DNA of 24,625 nt from a virus. The translations under genes were made by a program, and so were the position numbers. Where the stretch lies: positions 1-24,625 of the IMG/VR virus record IMGVR_UViG_3300026382_000049, one strand, 5' to 3'. Positions within the stretch are counted from its first letter, which is position 1; every line of letters begins with the position of its first letter. The notes beneath the pieces were generated by a model. The model did not search any database and had not been told where the DNA came from. It was given only the letters and a program-made list of their open reading frames with translations. Shown in pieces: positions 433-19,060 of the stretch.

Positions 433-502
433 TTTTATCCTTTTGTATCTTTGTATAAGCAAATAAAAATTTAAGGGTTTTTAGCCGCTTACGCGACTAA
501 AA
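433..502 (-). promoter_or_regulatory. 5'-UTR leader with GUAA-tetraloop hairpin (copy 1)
   Basis: On the minus strand a nearly perfect stem (479-488 with 493-502) is capped by GTAA, a GNRA tetraloop in RNA. After it come TAAATTTTTATTTGCTTATA and then the ribosome site of the 31-residue gene. The same hairpin and the following TAAATTTTTCTTTGCTTA occur at 14275-14311 (minus) and 19016-19057 (plus), each time upstream of a gene. Unlike those two, no GGTATATATA precedes this copy. It may therefore be a processing or stabilising element on a longer transcript coming from the structured region at 503-1045. Confidence 0.6.
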
Positions 503-515
503 TTTTTATTTTATT

Positions 516-538
516 GGTTTTATCCTCTTTTCCTTGAG
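516..538. repeat. AAGGAAAA-loop hairpin motif, copy 1
   Basis: Plus-strand order: GGTTTTATC, then CTC, TTTTCCTT, GAG. The 3-bp stem CTC/GAG (525-527 with 536-538) encloses the 8-base loop. Minus sense gives a loop AAGGAAAA followed by GATAAAACC. Compare copies at 735-757, 871-893 and 3111-3133, in which loop and flank are kept but stem bases differ in a pairing-preserving way. Confidence 0.6.
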
Positions 539-734
539 TCGTAGAACAGCCCCACCTGGTTACCTGCTGTCTACATTTTTGTCTCTCCTTATCAACCATA
601 CATTTCTACGACACACAACTGAGACAAGGGTTGTGTGAAGCCCCGATATTTAGCCTTTTATAGTCGCTGCTTAGGACTGGTTCACTTCCATATAGCCTGC
701 TGTAGCCTCGCTAGGAAGGGCGTGCTATATGTAG

Positions 735-757
735 GGTTTTAACGACTTTTCCTTGTC
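735..757. repeat. AAGGAAAA-loop hairpin motif, copy 2
   Basis: Plus-strand order: GGTTTTAAC, then GAC, TTTTCCTT, GTC. The stem is GAC (744-746) with GTC (755-757). Relative to copies 3 and 4, the middle pair is flipped between A-T and T-A, a compensatory change; all other bases of the motif are identical. Confidence 0.65.
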
Positions 758-870
758 ATGGCTCTTAGCACTTTTAGGTCGCCACTCTAAAAGCGTCTCT
801 CTGTTTCCTAGGTAAGAGAGATGTTGACCTGACTTTTACATTATCTCTCCCCATGCGGGGCAGCTCAATG

Positions 871-893
871 GGTTTTAACGTCTTTTCCTTGAC
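871..893. repeat. AAGGAAAA-loop hairpin motif, copy 3
   Basis: Plus-strand order: GGTTTTAAC, then GTC, TTTTCCTT, GAC. The stem is GTC (880-882) with GAC (891-893). It is identical to copy 4 at 3111-3133, about 2.2 kb away in a different transcription unit. Confidence 0.65.
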
Positions 894-1054
894 ATAATAC
901 TCTGTAATAATACTGGATCTTAGACCCGTATTATTACTAACTACTCGAAGCTGAGCGACGGTCCTCTGGGTTTGAAGGTAACCGCACTACCTACCCTCTT
1001 TTTTACACTATCAGGTTATTTTTGATAGCAACCTTTTGCAAGGATTTTTACGCT

Positions 1055-1219
1055 TTATTTGTAAATGGGTTTTATCTCCCATTTAATTAAAGCTACATTT
1101 ATTCCTGTGTTATCATAGATGCTTAGCATCTTTTGGATATATCTTTTTGCTTCTCCTATAGTTCCAAACTTCGCTTCTTGGTTCCACACTTTTGCTTTAT
1201 ACCCTACTATTTTTGCCAT
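1055..1219 (-). CDS. 54-residue hypothetical protein
   Basis: An ATG follows AAAAGGAGAAAAAA and opens a 54-residue frame (MAKIVGYKAKVWNQEAKFGT to KWEIKPIYK). The sequence looks like a small alpha/beta protein with a central helix around GEAKRYIQKMLSIY; no family is recognised. It is the only gene between the promoter module at 1252-1288 and the structured region below 1045. Its C-terminus (IKWEIKPIYK) resembles peptides readable through two copies of the AAGGAAAA motif (LKEKRIKPIK at copy 1, VKEKTLKPIK at copy 4). That may mean shared origin or chance. The pseudoknot-like fold begins about 20 bases after its stop. Confidence 0.7.
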   Translation of the reverse strand: MAKIVGYKAKVWNQEAKFGTIGEAKRYIQKMLSIYDNTGINVALIKWEIKPIYK

Positions 1220-2484: not shown

Positions 2485-2529
2485 AAAAAAAAACTGGGCA
2501 GAAATTACCTTACAATTACATCTTCCCAG
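2485..2529 (-). terminator. Terminator of the 107-residue gene unit
   Basis: Minus strand: CTGGG (2525-2529) and CCCAG (2494-2498), with an inner AGA/TCT pair, are followed by nine T residues. It lies about 160 bases after the stop of the 107-residue gene and just before the next promoter module. Confidence 0.65.
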
Positions 2530-2684
2530 GATGCAATTGATACTACTCGCACTACTGTTGCTTTCGTTGACACTTCTTTATTTGTGGTGTGCCCAACCCT
2601 CTGACGGCTGGTAATAATAACTTTTAGAGAAATGACTCCCTCTCTGTTATTATTACCATACCCGAAGTCCTAGCTAACCAGGTA
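2530..2684 (-). other. Structured 3' untranslated region
   Basis: Noncoding stretch between the 107-residue gene and its terminator. It contains a perfect 12-bp stem, GGTAATAATAAC (2610-2621) with its complement at 2646-2657. A further 5-bp stem sits inside (2626-2630/2641-2645) with a 10-base loop. There is no T-tract beside this hairpin, so it is not itself a terminator. The TAATAATA-type stem resembles the one at 905-936. Confidence 0.6.
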
Positions 2685-3008
2685 CTAAGATCTAACGAAT
2701 CCAGGCACACTTACGATATGCCCTTTTTCGTTTCTCTTAGCAGCCCCAGTATTAGGAGCAATCAGATCTGCTCTGTCAGGTCTTAACCCAAGTACCATCG
2801 CTGATACTATAAGGTAAACACCATCAACAGGAGCAGGTAGATTGTCTCCTACTACTGTGTTAGCCACTACTTCGAAACCGTCCACCTCACCTACCACTGT
2901 AGATTCAGTGATAACTCTAGCAACAAGCCCATCAGGCTCATATACTTTTGAGCTAACACCGTTATCAACTGTGATAGCGTGAGGCGTTAGATTTCTAATA
3001 GAAACCAT
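2685..3008 (-). CDS. Small phage protein of the LTPHAI type
   Basis: A complete 107-residue frame starts MVSIRNLTPHAITV. The N-terminal LTPHAI motif, the middle VARV...VGEVDGFEVV segment and the C-terminal DLIAPNTGAAKRNEKGHIVSV segment match a small conserved protein I have seen repeatedly in phages and related elements, usually annotated hypothetical. The family assignment is from memory of these motifs; its biochemical role is not known to me. The ribosome site AAAGGAG lies about ten bases upstream. It is the only well-supported gene of the unit 2485-3243, with a long folded leader and a folded 3' region. Confidence 0.8.
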   Translation of the reverse strand: MVSIRNLTPHAITVDNGVSSKVYEPDGLVARVITESTVVGEVDGFEVVANTVVGDNLPAPVDGVYLIVSAMVLGLRPDRADLIAPNTGAAKRNEKGHIVSVPGFVRS

Positions 3009-3206
3009 CCTCTCTTTCTCCTTTCGGCACTAGCGTTGAGAGCCCACTAGCCCAGTGATTTTTAGGTCACATTGGACCGGACGCGTTTTATAAGATGTCC
3101 CGACTTAATTGGTTTTAACGTCTTTTCCTTGACAGTAACTATGACATCATGTGCCGCTCCACCCATTATGGCCACTTGGACACTATGTCCTTTTAATGGG
3201 TATATA
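3009..3206 (-). promoter_or_regulatory. Long structured leader of the 107-residue gene
   Basis: About 200 bases between the promoter hairpin and the LTPHAI gene hold a nested fold: ACCCATTA/TAATGGGT (3161-3168/3194-3201) enclosing GGACA/TGTCC (3178-3182/3186-3190). After it come the AAGGAAAA motif copy 4, GGTC/GACC (3065-3068/3075-3078) and CACT/AGTG (3045-3048/3054-3057). A 56-codon frame from the ATG at 3230-3232 to the stop at 3062 also runs through here, with no ribosome site and with its start inside the promoter hairpin. The region could therefore be a folded leader, a small gene, or both. Confidence 0.5.
3111..3133. repeat. AAGGAAAA-loop hairpin motif, copy 4
   Basis: Plus-strand order: GGTTTTAAC, then GTC, TTTTCCTT, GAC (stem 3120-3122 with 3131-3133). 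It is identical to copy 3. In the minus-strand frame of the 56-codon candidate it reads VKEKTLKPI. Confidence 0.65.
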
Positions 3207-3243
3207 GAGAAGTTATCAAACTTCTCATTCATATATATATACC
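3207..3243 (-). promoter_or_regulatory. Phage promoter module GGTATATATA plus 5' hairpin (P3)
   Basis: GGTATATATA (3234-3243, minus) is followed by the 8-bp hairpin GAGAAGTT/AACTTCTC (3207-3214/3219-3226), here with loop TGAT in minus sense. Upstream, GAATATC (3247-3253) and GATATTC (3266-3272) repeat the 12-base spacing seen at P1, and CGATATTCGTCCTAAT is at 3265-3280. Confidence 0.7.
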
Positions 3244-3842: not shown

Positions 3843-3881
3843 GAGAAGTTGGCAAAAACTCCTCTTTCATATATATATACC
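3843..3881 (-). promoter_or_regulatory. Phage promoter module GGTATATATA plus 5' hairpin (P4)
   Basis: GGTATATATA (3872-3881, minus) is followed by GAGGAGTT/AACTTCTC (3843-3850/3857-3864) with a 6-base loop. The ATTAGGACGAATATCG block of the other three modules is absent upstream, where the divergent HNH promoter sits instead. Confidence 0.7.
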
Positions 3882-14274: not shown

Positions 14275-14338
14275 AGAAAAATTTAAGAGATTATGGCCGC
14301 TTACGCGACCAAAGATTTCTCTTCTATTTATATATACC
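14275..14338 (-). promoter_or_regulatory. GGTATATATA promoter with GUAA-tetraloop leader (copy 2)
   Basis: GGTATATATA (14329-14338, minus), then AAAT and a leader with stem TGGTCGC/GCGGCCA (14305-14311 with 14294-14300) and GTAA loop, flanked by a GAGA/TCTC outer pair. The following TTAAATTTTTCTTTGCTTA is identical to the leader of the 19077 gene. From GGTATATATA to the end of this block the two copies are nearly identical. Confidence 0.75.
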
Positions 14339-14835: not shown

Positions 14836-16575
14836 TTATAATATACCAAGTGTATATTTTGTTCTATCAGATAATAATTTGTTTTTATCTGTTTTCTTAT
14901 TATACAATAATTCATTACTAATACCTTTTTTTATTCCTCTATAATTTAGTTTTTGCCATAAAACAGAATTAGCAAGTGGTTTTTGTTCATATGTTTTATA
15001 TACAGGAACAATAGGTGCTTCTGAATGAGATACTTTTATTTCATTTATTTTATGCTCTTTCATTTTTTTTACAATAGGTTCTGTTATTTTTGTTCCAACA
15101 GAATAATGTAAAAAAGGTTCTGCTAAATATTTATTAGTTATTTGTTTGTCTTTTACACTAATAGTTGATGTGTGTGGAAGCTCTGTATCTTTAATTAATC
15201 CATCATATCTGTATATTTGATGCATATCATCATTTTTGTTTTTTGCTAACTCTAAATAACCTCTTGCTAATATTGAGAATTGTCTTTTATCAATATCTCC
15301 ACCATTAGCTTCATATAGTTTATCAGTAACAAACTTTCTTGCTTGGTTCATACCAGAATACTTCATCACATCTCTTGTTGATGGTAATCCAGTACTTACA
15401 CTGTCTCCCTTGTTTACAAAATCACCAACTTTAACTTTAACATTTACTTCAGGCGCAACATAGTGTTCTTTGTCTGCTATATAAACATTATATCCACCAG
15501 TGTTAAGTTTATCTATTTTTGTTACTTTTCCATCTGTAGATGATAATGTTGCTTTACCTCTAAAATTTTCTGGAGTATTTAATAATATTTTTTGAGCTTC
15601 GAACCCAGTAGGAACTACAGATTTTAATTTACCTTTGATATCATGTTTTGCTGATAATACCAACTGCGTTGCTTTTTCAGCAACTGTTTGAGCAGCTTGA
15701 ATACCTACATTCATACCTATATCCAAATGTTTTCCTTGTCCATCATGACCGTAACACATTTGGCATATTCCATCTTTTCCTTCACAAGTTATCGGATCTC
15801 TAACAATAATTTTCTTTTTACCGCTTTTTTTAAGTTGGTTTAGATAGTCTTTTGTTATAAGTTTATTTGTTCTTGCTTCATATCTTCCGATAATAGAACC
15901 ATCATTTATATCATGCTCAATACCATTTTTTGTACCACAATCTTTACAACATATCTTTAAGTGTTCTGTATTTGCTACAAGCACTTTACCCATAGCACCA
16001 GGTTCAGAAGTAGAAGTTGCAGCTTGAACTGCCGCATATCTGGCTTGAGAACCAGCCGCAAACATTTCGTGAGACCTATATCCTTCTGATAATGAATTCT
16101 TTAACATAAATGGAAATGGTTCTGAATTCATATCTACAGTATATATCGGTGCACCTAATGTTCTTGTTATAGTGGCTGGGTTACCTCTACCTCTTGAATT
16201 CCCTTGATCTACTAAATGATTATTGTCTATACTCATTGTCTTTTTTTGAACATCAGAAAATAATTCTATCAATCTAGCTTTCTTTTTCTCATTAGACATT
16301 AAGGATAGTTTTTTATCTTCTTTCTCTAAGAATTTTTTAATTTCTTTTCTTTTTGGGTGTAACAAGTCATTAAGACCAACATGGTGGCCATGTGTATATG
16401 CAACTTCTTCACCTAAATCACCTATTAAATGAATGTTTTTCTTATATAATTCTGGATTTTGTTTAGCAAATTCAACTAATCTTTTTTTTAGTTTTGCTTT
16501 TGTTAAAGGTGCATCCTCTTTCTTAAAATGAAGATTGTCTGGCAATAAACTGTTTAATTGTTTTATTATTTCCAT
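14836..16575 (-). CDS. Phage RNA polymerase beta' subunit, C-terminal part
   Basis: This 579-residue protein aligns by eye with the C-terminal half of multisubunit RNA polymerase beta'. Residues 125-145 (SRGRGNPATITRTLGAP) and 165-205 (bridge-helix region: EGYRSHEMFAAGSQARYAAV) match the F-bridge area. CxxC near 210-213 and C264-x6-C271-x2-C274 (ICQMCYGHD) match zinc site 2. The trigger loop follows at 289-312 (NVGIQAAQTVAEKATQLVLSAKH), with the conserved Gln-Leu pair and the trigger-loop His at 311. The Arg next to the bacterial Met-Arg pair is Ser here. The NADFDGD catalytic motif is absent, so it must be in a second subunit outside the window, as in phiKZ/AR9-like split polymerases. Divergent TATAAT promoters precede it. 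Confidence 0.85.
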   Translation of the reverse strand: MEIIKQLNSLLPDNLHFKKEDAPLTKAKLKKRLVEFAKQNPELYKKNIHLIGDLGEEVAYTHGHHVGLNDLLHPKRKEIKKFLEKEDKKLSLMSNEKKKARLIELFSDVQKKTMSIDNNHLVDQGNSRGRGNPATITRTLGAPIYTVDMNSEPFPFMLKNSLSEGYRSHEMFAAGSQARYAAVQAATSTSEPGAMGKVLVANTEHLKICCKDCGTKNGIEHDINDGSIIGRYEARTNKLITKDYLNQLKKSGKKKIIVRDPITCEGKDGICQMCYGHDGQGKHLDIGMNVGIQAAQTVAEKATQLVLSAKHDIKGKLKSVVPTGFEAQKILLNTPENFRGKATLSSTDGKVTKIDKLNTGGYNVYIADKEHYVAPEVNVKVKVGDFVNKGDSVSTGLPSTRDVMKYSGMNQARKFVTDKLYEANGGDIDKRQFSILARGYLELAKNKNDDMHQIYRYDGLIKDTELPHTSTISVKDKQITNKYLAEPFLHYSVGTKITEPIVKKMKEHKINEIKVSHSEAPIVPVYKTYEQKPLANSVLWQKLNYRGIKKGISNELLYNKKTDKNKLLSDRTKYTLGIL

Positions 16576-18990: not shown

Positions 18991-19060
18991 GGTATATATA
19001 AATGGGAGAAATCTTTGGTCGCGTAAGCGGCCATAATCTCTTAAATTTTTCTTTGCTTAT
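18991..19060 (+). promoter_or_regulatory. GGTATATATA promoter with GUAA-tetraloop leader (copy 3)
   Basis: GGTATATATA (18991-19000), then AAATGGGAGAAATCT, then the stem TGGTCGC/GCGGCCA (19016-19022 with 19027-19033) with GTAA loop and CATAATCTCTTAAATTTTTC after it. It is nearly identical over more than 50 bases to the minus-strand leader at 14275-14338. A strong ribosome site (AAAGGAGG) follows. Confidence 0.75.

Follow-up and report, generated by a model that had tools for sequence, protein, structure and literature searches.

The conserved part of the structured region at nt 479–1045 of the window (the whole 24,625-nt stretch of virus DNA analysed here) is a pseudoknot of 23–26 nt, which many phages and some rRNA leaders carry as a single copy or as a series. 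It is built of a 3–6 bp stem, a loop of 8–9 nt (AAGGAAAA or NNNGAUAAA) and an A-rich tail, the final two bases of which pair with two loop bases. Compensatory changes show that the repeated unit is maintained as an RNA fold. On the minus strand of the window, three such modules spaced by other hairpins form a structured noncoding array (479–1045).

A preliminary description had characterized 479–1045 as a dense array of helices in a gene-free, GC-rich stretch, and this holds. No ORF of at least 40 aa lies inside it on either strand, the GC content is 42.7% compared with 29.2% for the window, and inverted repeats are found at 461–475/497–511, 904–916/925–937 and 535–546/604–615. The ORFs of 20–36 aa reach at best a 4/6 match to the Shine-Dalgarno sequence, in agreement with the earlier statement that no gene there has a ribosome site. 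The minus strand folds with a minimum free energy of −157.3 kcal/mol; 200 dinucleotide shuffles average −136.5 (sd 6.5, z −3.19), and none is as low; a second folding run gave z −2.97. The plus strand is on a par (z −3.15), and folding energy alone therefore cannot pick the strand. It is the asymmetric repeated motif that assigns the array to the minus strand.

The 54-aa ORF said to precede the stretch lies directly upstream in the same direction (1055–1219, minus strand; no family match). The promoter placed at 1279–1288 does not stand as a sigma-70 promoter, but it does as a copy of a repeated sequence, GGTATATATATATGAAWGAGAAGTTTG, found four times on the minus strand. The whole AT-rich, promoter-like repeat (GGTATATATATATG, followed by the 5′ hairpin GAGAAGTT/AACTTCTC) spans 1262–1288 and recurs on the same strand at 2416–2442, 3217–3243 and 3855–3881, each time with a short 5′ hairpin, where no copy is expected by chance. 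Judged by sequence, it is plausible, if unproven, that these four elements are phage-type promoters. The window phage, whose promoters are not sigma-70-like, carries an RNA polymerase gene at 14836–16575, which is beta′-like with homology to the beta/beta′ family. The array could possibly be read as a 3′ UTR, in that it trails the 54-aa ORF and runs into the leader of the next genes.

A repeat search revealed what the preliminary description lacked, namely a family (D1) of direct repeats of about 26 nt, three of them near-identical within the stretch. The repeated unit, stem-AAGGAAAA-stem-UUAAAACC, is located at 871–896, 735–760 and 516–541, plus 3111–3136, all on the minus strand. Copy 1, the first in the transcript, reads TATGTC-AAGGAAAA-GACGTTAAAACC (871–896; 38.3 bits with covariance model R1). 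In copy 2, CATGAC-AAGGAAAA-GTCGTTAAAACC (735–760; 39.0 bits), the stem is compensated relative to copy 1, and copy 3, CGACTC-AAGGAAAA-GAGGATAAAACC (516–541; 32.2 bits), has a third compensatory stem. As RNA the cores are GUC-AAGGAAAA-GAC-GUUAAAACC, GAC-AAGGAAAA-GUC-GUUAAAACC and CUC-AAGGAAAA-GAG-GAUAAAACC; that is, three different perfectly paired stems (GUC/GAC, GAC/GUC, CUC/GAG) share one loop and tail. The copies are spaced at 136 and 219 nt, and the intervening parts are unrelated. Copy 4 (3111–3136; 38.0 bits; BLAST match 3104–3134, 94% identity) lies in the 5′ leader of a 107-aa ORF (2685–3008, minus strand).

Further helices surround the copies on the same strand. Candidate closing stems (P0) of six perfect pairs each can be drawn for copy 2 (GUGCUA 766–771/UAGCAC 722–727, spanning 722–771) and copy 4 (GAUGUC 3143–3148/GACAUC 3094–3099, spanning 3094–3148), with the caveat that P0 has no statistical support in the 8-nt-loop class as a whole (7.50 versus 6.13 with swapped flanks). 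For copy 1, inspection of the sequence offers either a candidate closing stem with two wobble pairs (GUAUUAU 894–900/AUAAUGU 838–844, spanning 838–900) or a hairpin, CAUU/AAUG, directly 3′ of the pseudoknot. Just upstream of copy 1 is a long hairpin (904–937; inverted repeat I6, 92% complementary), and the 3′ strand of a stem TCGTAGAA/TTCTACGA (535–615; inverted repeat I11) abuts copy 3. Just after copy 3 stands a hairpin with the core GTCGCGTAAGCGGC (475–511), which does not score as terminator-like. The core occurs at 482–497 (minus), 14294–14309 (minus) and 19018–19033 (plus), three matches where none is expected; since it stands before other genes too, it is more likely a gene-leader element of the window phage than a terminator. 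At these three positions the hairpin core, GTCGCGTAAGCGGCYA, precedes three genes on both strands, and a U/C change in it is matched by A/G on the opposite arm. A second GC-rich stretch, 2500–3220, contains a strong hairpin at about 2608–2660 (GGTAATAATAAC/GTTATTATTACC) besides copy 4 and may be another structured leader or 3′ UTR; the GC content of 2521–3220 equals that of 479–1045.

The stem of the H-type pseudoknot is backed by covariation. In 529 kb of virus DNA, from loci fetched for holding the motif with patterns that left two of three stem pairs free, 106 of 205 AAGGAAAA sites are closed by at least three Watson-Crick pairs, compared with 48 of 2844 sites of 27 permuted control octamers. 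Among the added copies, many stems are ones that the fetching patterns did not ask for. A 63-row alignment gave a covariation score of 0.642, against 0.162 when shuffled and at most 0.135 in slid controls, with changes on both sides of four stem pairs. Because three pairs were required of every row, the percentage paired is inflated, as is this score in part; the variety of pair types is unaffected.

The pairing between loop and tail is established in the class with the 9-nt loop (NNNGAUAAA). In the 8-nt class, that of the window copies, GG:CC is nearly invariant and is therefore no proof of the pairing there; a scan for covarying 8-nt versions gave mostly coding matches, with two paired and two mismatched of four. 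A sister form with the loop AAGGAUAAA is present in cultured gammaproteobacterial phages, and there the loop and tail have changed together, to AG:CU in Klyazma and UG:CA in MR5. These changed pairs were the reason for a scan of IMG/VR with GTCNNNGATAAAGACGTTAAAAC, which left loop bases 1–3 and the base after the tail C free. At all 29 distinct sites of the 9-nt class, loop base 3 and tail base 2 form a Watson-Crick pair (G-C 20, U-A 4, A-U 4, C-G 1), whereas none of 200,000 permutations reached 29, the best giving 24. The lone C-G site, whose loop is atypical and which lacks an obvious promoter, may have matched by chance. The closing stem P0 is also real in this class (9.46 versus 3.38 with swapped flanks). 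These results establish the 9-nt class as an H-type pseudoknot, and by analogy the window copies would form the same loop-tail pair.

At least 40 virus records contain the element. When IMG/VR was scanned for exact matches to CAAGGAAAAGNCGTTAAAAC, at least 26 contig stretches from very different genomes were returned, and a looser pattern gave at least 58; among 84,980 bacterial and archaeal genomes there were at least 77 matches, many of them stemless chance ones. R1 matched in 41 of 41 virus records, all picked for holding the element, with 15–17 copies in three records and 12 in a fourth. In a control of 245 genomes of one bacterial order, searched with stricter filters, no match at E≤1e-4 was obtained except in G046. 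No copy was found in Arash and Vibrio D69, which among named phages are closest to the window phage. Neither in the window nor at 20 further loci is the element covered by an Rfam family. A literature search, outside which most subscription papers lay, did not find the core sequence in a relevant setting; an earlier description is possible.

The contexts share a theme of host-type promoters and mostly untranslated RNA. In cultured phages the element occupies early leaders of LUZ100, Bonnellvirus J8-65 and forsur, and Pseudomonas phage MR5; further early leaders are those of the Zobellviridae VPMCC5 and Klyazma, Slicky01, the phi29-like KonjoTrouble and an inovirus record, so that T7-like, phi29-like and Zobellviridae phages are all included. 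In LUZ100 it lies just downstream of P1, a mapped promoter (PMC10134795), in J8-65 about 600 nt from the first annotated ORF, and in KonjoTrouble within about 870 nt before ssb. For the 9-nt class, a sigma-70 promoter is found within 110 nt upstream in 20 of 30 cases (2.5 expected), and the −10 box mostly ends 22–31 nt before the knot. In G005–G008, successive genes are each preceded by a TTGACA-17-TATAAT-type promoter, with the knot 9–18 nt later and then AGAAAGG and the ATG; the stems vary from gene to gene with compensation, the tail CC is 2 nt before AAAGG, and the ATG is 32–39 nt from the loop. The early regions L144–L147 consist of monocistronic units of promoter, pseudoknot leader, small ORF and terminator-like hairpin, in which a palindrome, TTAGATGTTAAACATCTAA, precedes the next promoter (seen in L144). 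Genes of L144 end in terminator-like hairpins at 43 sites, against 10.7 expected.

Large phages have the element in tRNA, tmRNA and ROOL neighbourhoods, and one contig, L024, holds ROOL, tmRNA and the element together. As read from the sequence, L148 and L057 bear noncoding arrays of about 1 kb upstream of an ssb-like ORF, and comparable noncoding arrays occur in L027, L010 and L040; the window array looks most like those of the L148/L057 type. In L148, L057, L027 and L040, small hairpins with A-rich tails (e.g., CGUU-loop-AACG-UAAAA) directly follow each AAGGAAAA knot and are possibly a second element type. Among bacteria, rRNA-operon leaders of one Oscillospiraceae genus of the gut have nine copies in five genomes, with differing stems. 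They stand between the leader element CTTGAAAATTGAAC and the 16S gene, some 95 nt from the latter on contigs long enough to include it (16S confirmed in L238). These loci (L228, L232, L234, L236, L238–L240) represent several operons and species of the genus. Finally, 22 model matches were obtained in G049, the uncultured Bacilli MAG Lapin-017 bin6 (e.g., L075, L104, L217–L225). The copies inspected lie in 3′ UTRs, directly after the stop codon; the genes concerned encode surface proteins that look variable and are possibly targets of diversity generation. These copies have stems GTC/GAC or GAG/CTC and are followed by an invariant TTCATAGACTTAATCC and a terminator-like hairpin.

Recurrence of one fold across these contexts suggests, without proving, an RNA signal of general use by which RNA polymerase is kept moving. 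In leaders of cultured phages, tRNA arrays, the 1-kb arrays and rRNA leaders alike, long untranslated RNA is made by host-type transcription. Bacteria and phages employ antitermination in this setting, and an element acting on the polymerase is therefore favored. From its position near the starts of host-promoter transcripts or inside untranslated RNAs, in different phages and some bacteria, and from its conservation, our best explanation, in which we place a little under even confidence, is a nascent-RNA element that would act on the elongation complex in antitermination or anti-pausing, like HK022 put or boxA. The knot would engage the elongating polymerase on leaving the RNA exit channel, either directly, as put RNA does, or via Nus-type factors, as boxA does. 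The polymerase would then resist pausing and termination and could complete RNAs that are structured or long and untranslated, each further copy restoring this resistance. In the window, the array would carry polymerase beyond the 54-aa gene, across some 570 nt of untranslated RNA, and on into the genes that follow. A wider proposal is more tentative: a single pseudoknot family, absent from Rfam, may be a broad phage antitermination signal for polymerases of different phyla, taken into the rRNA leaders of a gut Bacillota genus, with the three copies in a row in the window driving transcription through long untranslated RNA.

Several observations count against antitermination. In G006–G008 the genes behind the element end in terminator-like hairpins, where an antiterminator would seem wasteful, and the inspected copies among the 22 of G049 stand shortly before such a hairpin. 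The window phage has its own RNA polymerase gene and promoters unlike sigma-70. The leaders of G005–G008 and the 3′ UTRs of G049 fit antitermination less well, and there the element could have a role in stability or translation.

An unlikely alternative, yet one compatible with any host, is that the compact knot blocks ribonucleases, either RNase J acting 5′ to 3′ in Bacillota or the entry of an endonuclease, and so protects leaders, tRNA arrays and noncoding RNAs. Its place near the 5′ end of many early mRNAs, its presence in processed, stable RNAs such as tRNA arrays and the rRNA leader, and the 3′ UTR copies of G049 would all agree with such protection. The first pair, however, is set in from the expected 5′ end, beginning 9–18 nt after the −10 box; a roadblock would make little sense in a leader that needs trimming to yield 16S; and the loop and tail are conserved beyond what stability needs.

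It is quite unlikely that the knot is a translation leader or operator, at which a phage or host protein, or the ribosome, would bind by the Shine-Dalgarno sequence and set early translation, the arrays being decoys. CsrA-like proteins recognise A-N-GGA in hairpin loops, and the loop contains AAGGA, comparable with that motif; the short distances from tail to AAAGG and from loop to ATG in G005–G008 are also as this reading would have them. Against it, the J8-65 element is remote from the first annotated ORF, the element is found in rRNA leaders and tRNA arrays, and the 9-nt class exchanges GG for AG or UG along with the tail, which a reader of GGA would not tolerate.

We consider it improbable that the 560-nt stretch is one large ornate RNA of a new class like ROOL or GOLLD, as the preliminary description had surmised, in which the knots would be building blocks only. 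The dense helices and low folding energy speak for it, and ROOL and GOLLD are often near phage tRNA islands (PMC12286853), where the knot also occurs. Folding was better than in shuffled sequence, and the repeated unit shows compensatory changes across phages. With the whole stretch as query, BLASTN against phages and plasmids gave short chance-level pieces only, one 23-nt piece being the motif, and no relative of the stretch as a whole was found; nor did IMG/VR hold relatives of the 54-aa ORF or a portal-like ORF. Rfam at gathering thresholds returned no match in the window, ROOL, GOLLD and ARRPOF included, consistent with the earlier remark that no likeness to these was seen; the sole weak lead was GP20-b. 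With neither homologue nor Rfam family, a new RNA of this type cannot be shown, and the uneven spacing of the copies and the unrelated parts between them also disagree with it. What survives is a structured noncoding region, by folding and by covariation of the unit; a single conserved 560-nt molecule is not supported. Equally improbable is a processing signal read by a host nuclease or ribosome-assembly factor that would cut nearby, for which the rRNA and tRNA contexts speak, since the knot also stands in short monocistronic mRNA leaders, where cutting would free no evident product, and no conserved cleavage-like sequence was seen.

HK022 put is the sole case of protein-free antitermination by a phage leader RNA met in our literature search. 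Were the action on polymerase true, put-like antitermination would be common rather than exceptional, and this could be tested with reporters; behind it would stand the early promoters of T7-like, phi29-like, Zobellviridae and large rumen phages, tRNA arrays and rRNA leaders. Even if the role is in stability or translation, the knot marks early phage transcripts, and it is a compact tag by which noncoding phage RNAs overlooked by Rfam can be located and annotated.

Among known RNAs, a preQ1-type riboswitch was considered by general shape only and set aside. Rfam GP20-b (RF03003) resembles the window in a second hairpin with an 8-nt A/G loop followed by an A-rich tail; the window scores 22.8 bits against a cut-off of 36.2, and of 24 records searched 19 had no match even at E≤1 and none scored above the cut-off, so that GP20-b was dropped. 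A CsrA sponge of the CsrB type was rejected because the loop GGA is not invariant: in the 9-nt class, which this test covers, AG or UG replaces GG together with the tail, while GGA is near-invariant in the 8-nt class. Type III antitoxin RNAs (ToxI-type) are tandem small pseudoknots, but the repeats here are neither identical nor regular, and copies elsewhere are mostly lone elements of leaders. Beside the window repeats no toxin-like gene was recognised, and the downstream ORFs (the last cut by the window end) have no Pfam match; with spacings of 136 and 219 nt and no ToxN-like neighbour, this identity was rejected. ROOL and GOLLD are likewise phage noncoding RNAs near tRNA islands, but are much larger single RNAs.

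The element shares with boxA of rRNA leaders and lambda nut the occupation of both rRNA leaders and early phage leaders. boxA, however, is a linear sequence read by NusB-S10, whereas the element is a covarying pseudoknot. An rRNA-type boxA (TGYTCTTTAACAATCTGG; boxA-like TGYTCTTTAACA) lies near the knot in noncoding early leaders of LUZ100 (L154, 647), forsur (L156, 2420) and J8-65 (L157, 771).

The put sites of HK022 (putL and putR) differ in several respects. The put RNA of about 70 nt folds in two parts, stem I containing a minor-groove triplex (PMC9378689), whereas the element is a single H-type pseudoknot of 23–26 nt with a closing stem in the 9-nt-loop class only, and its distribution is far wider. 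R1 had no match in HK022 24–34 kb, and a self-similarity search of HK022 did not recover the put pair; the lack of an R1 match and the near-invariant GG:CC of the window class count against the antitermination reading. Nevertheless, both are short structured RNAs in early phage leaders just downstream of host promoters, a placement that is found for the relatives and not for the window copies. The put RNA acts from the early leader without a dedicated protein (PMC9378689). It binds the beta′ zinc-binding domain and suppresses termination, and the pseudoknot may act likewise.
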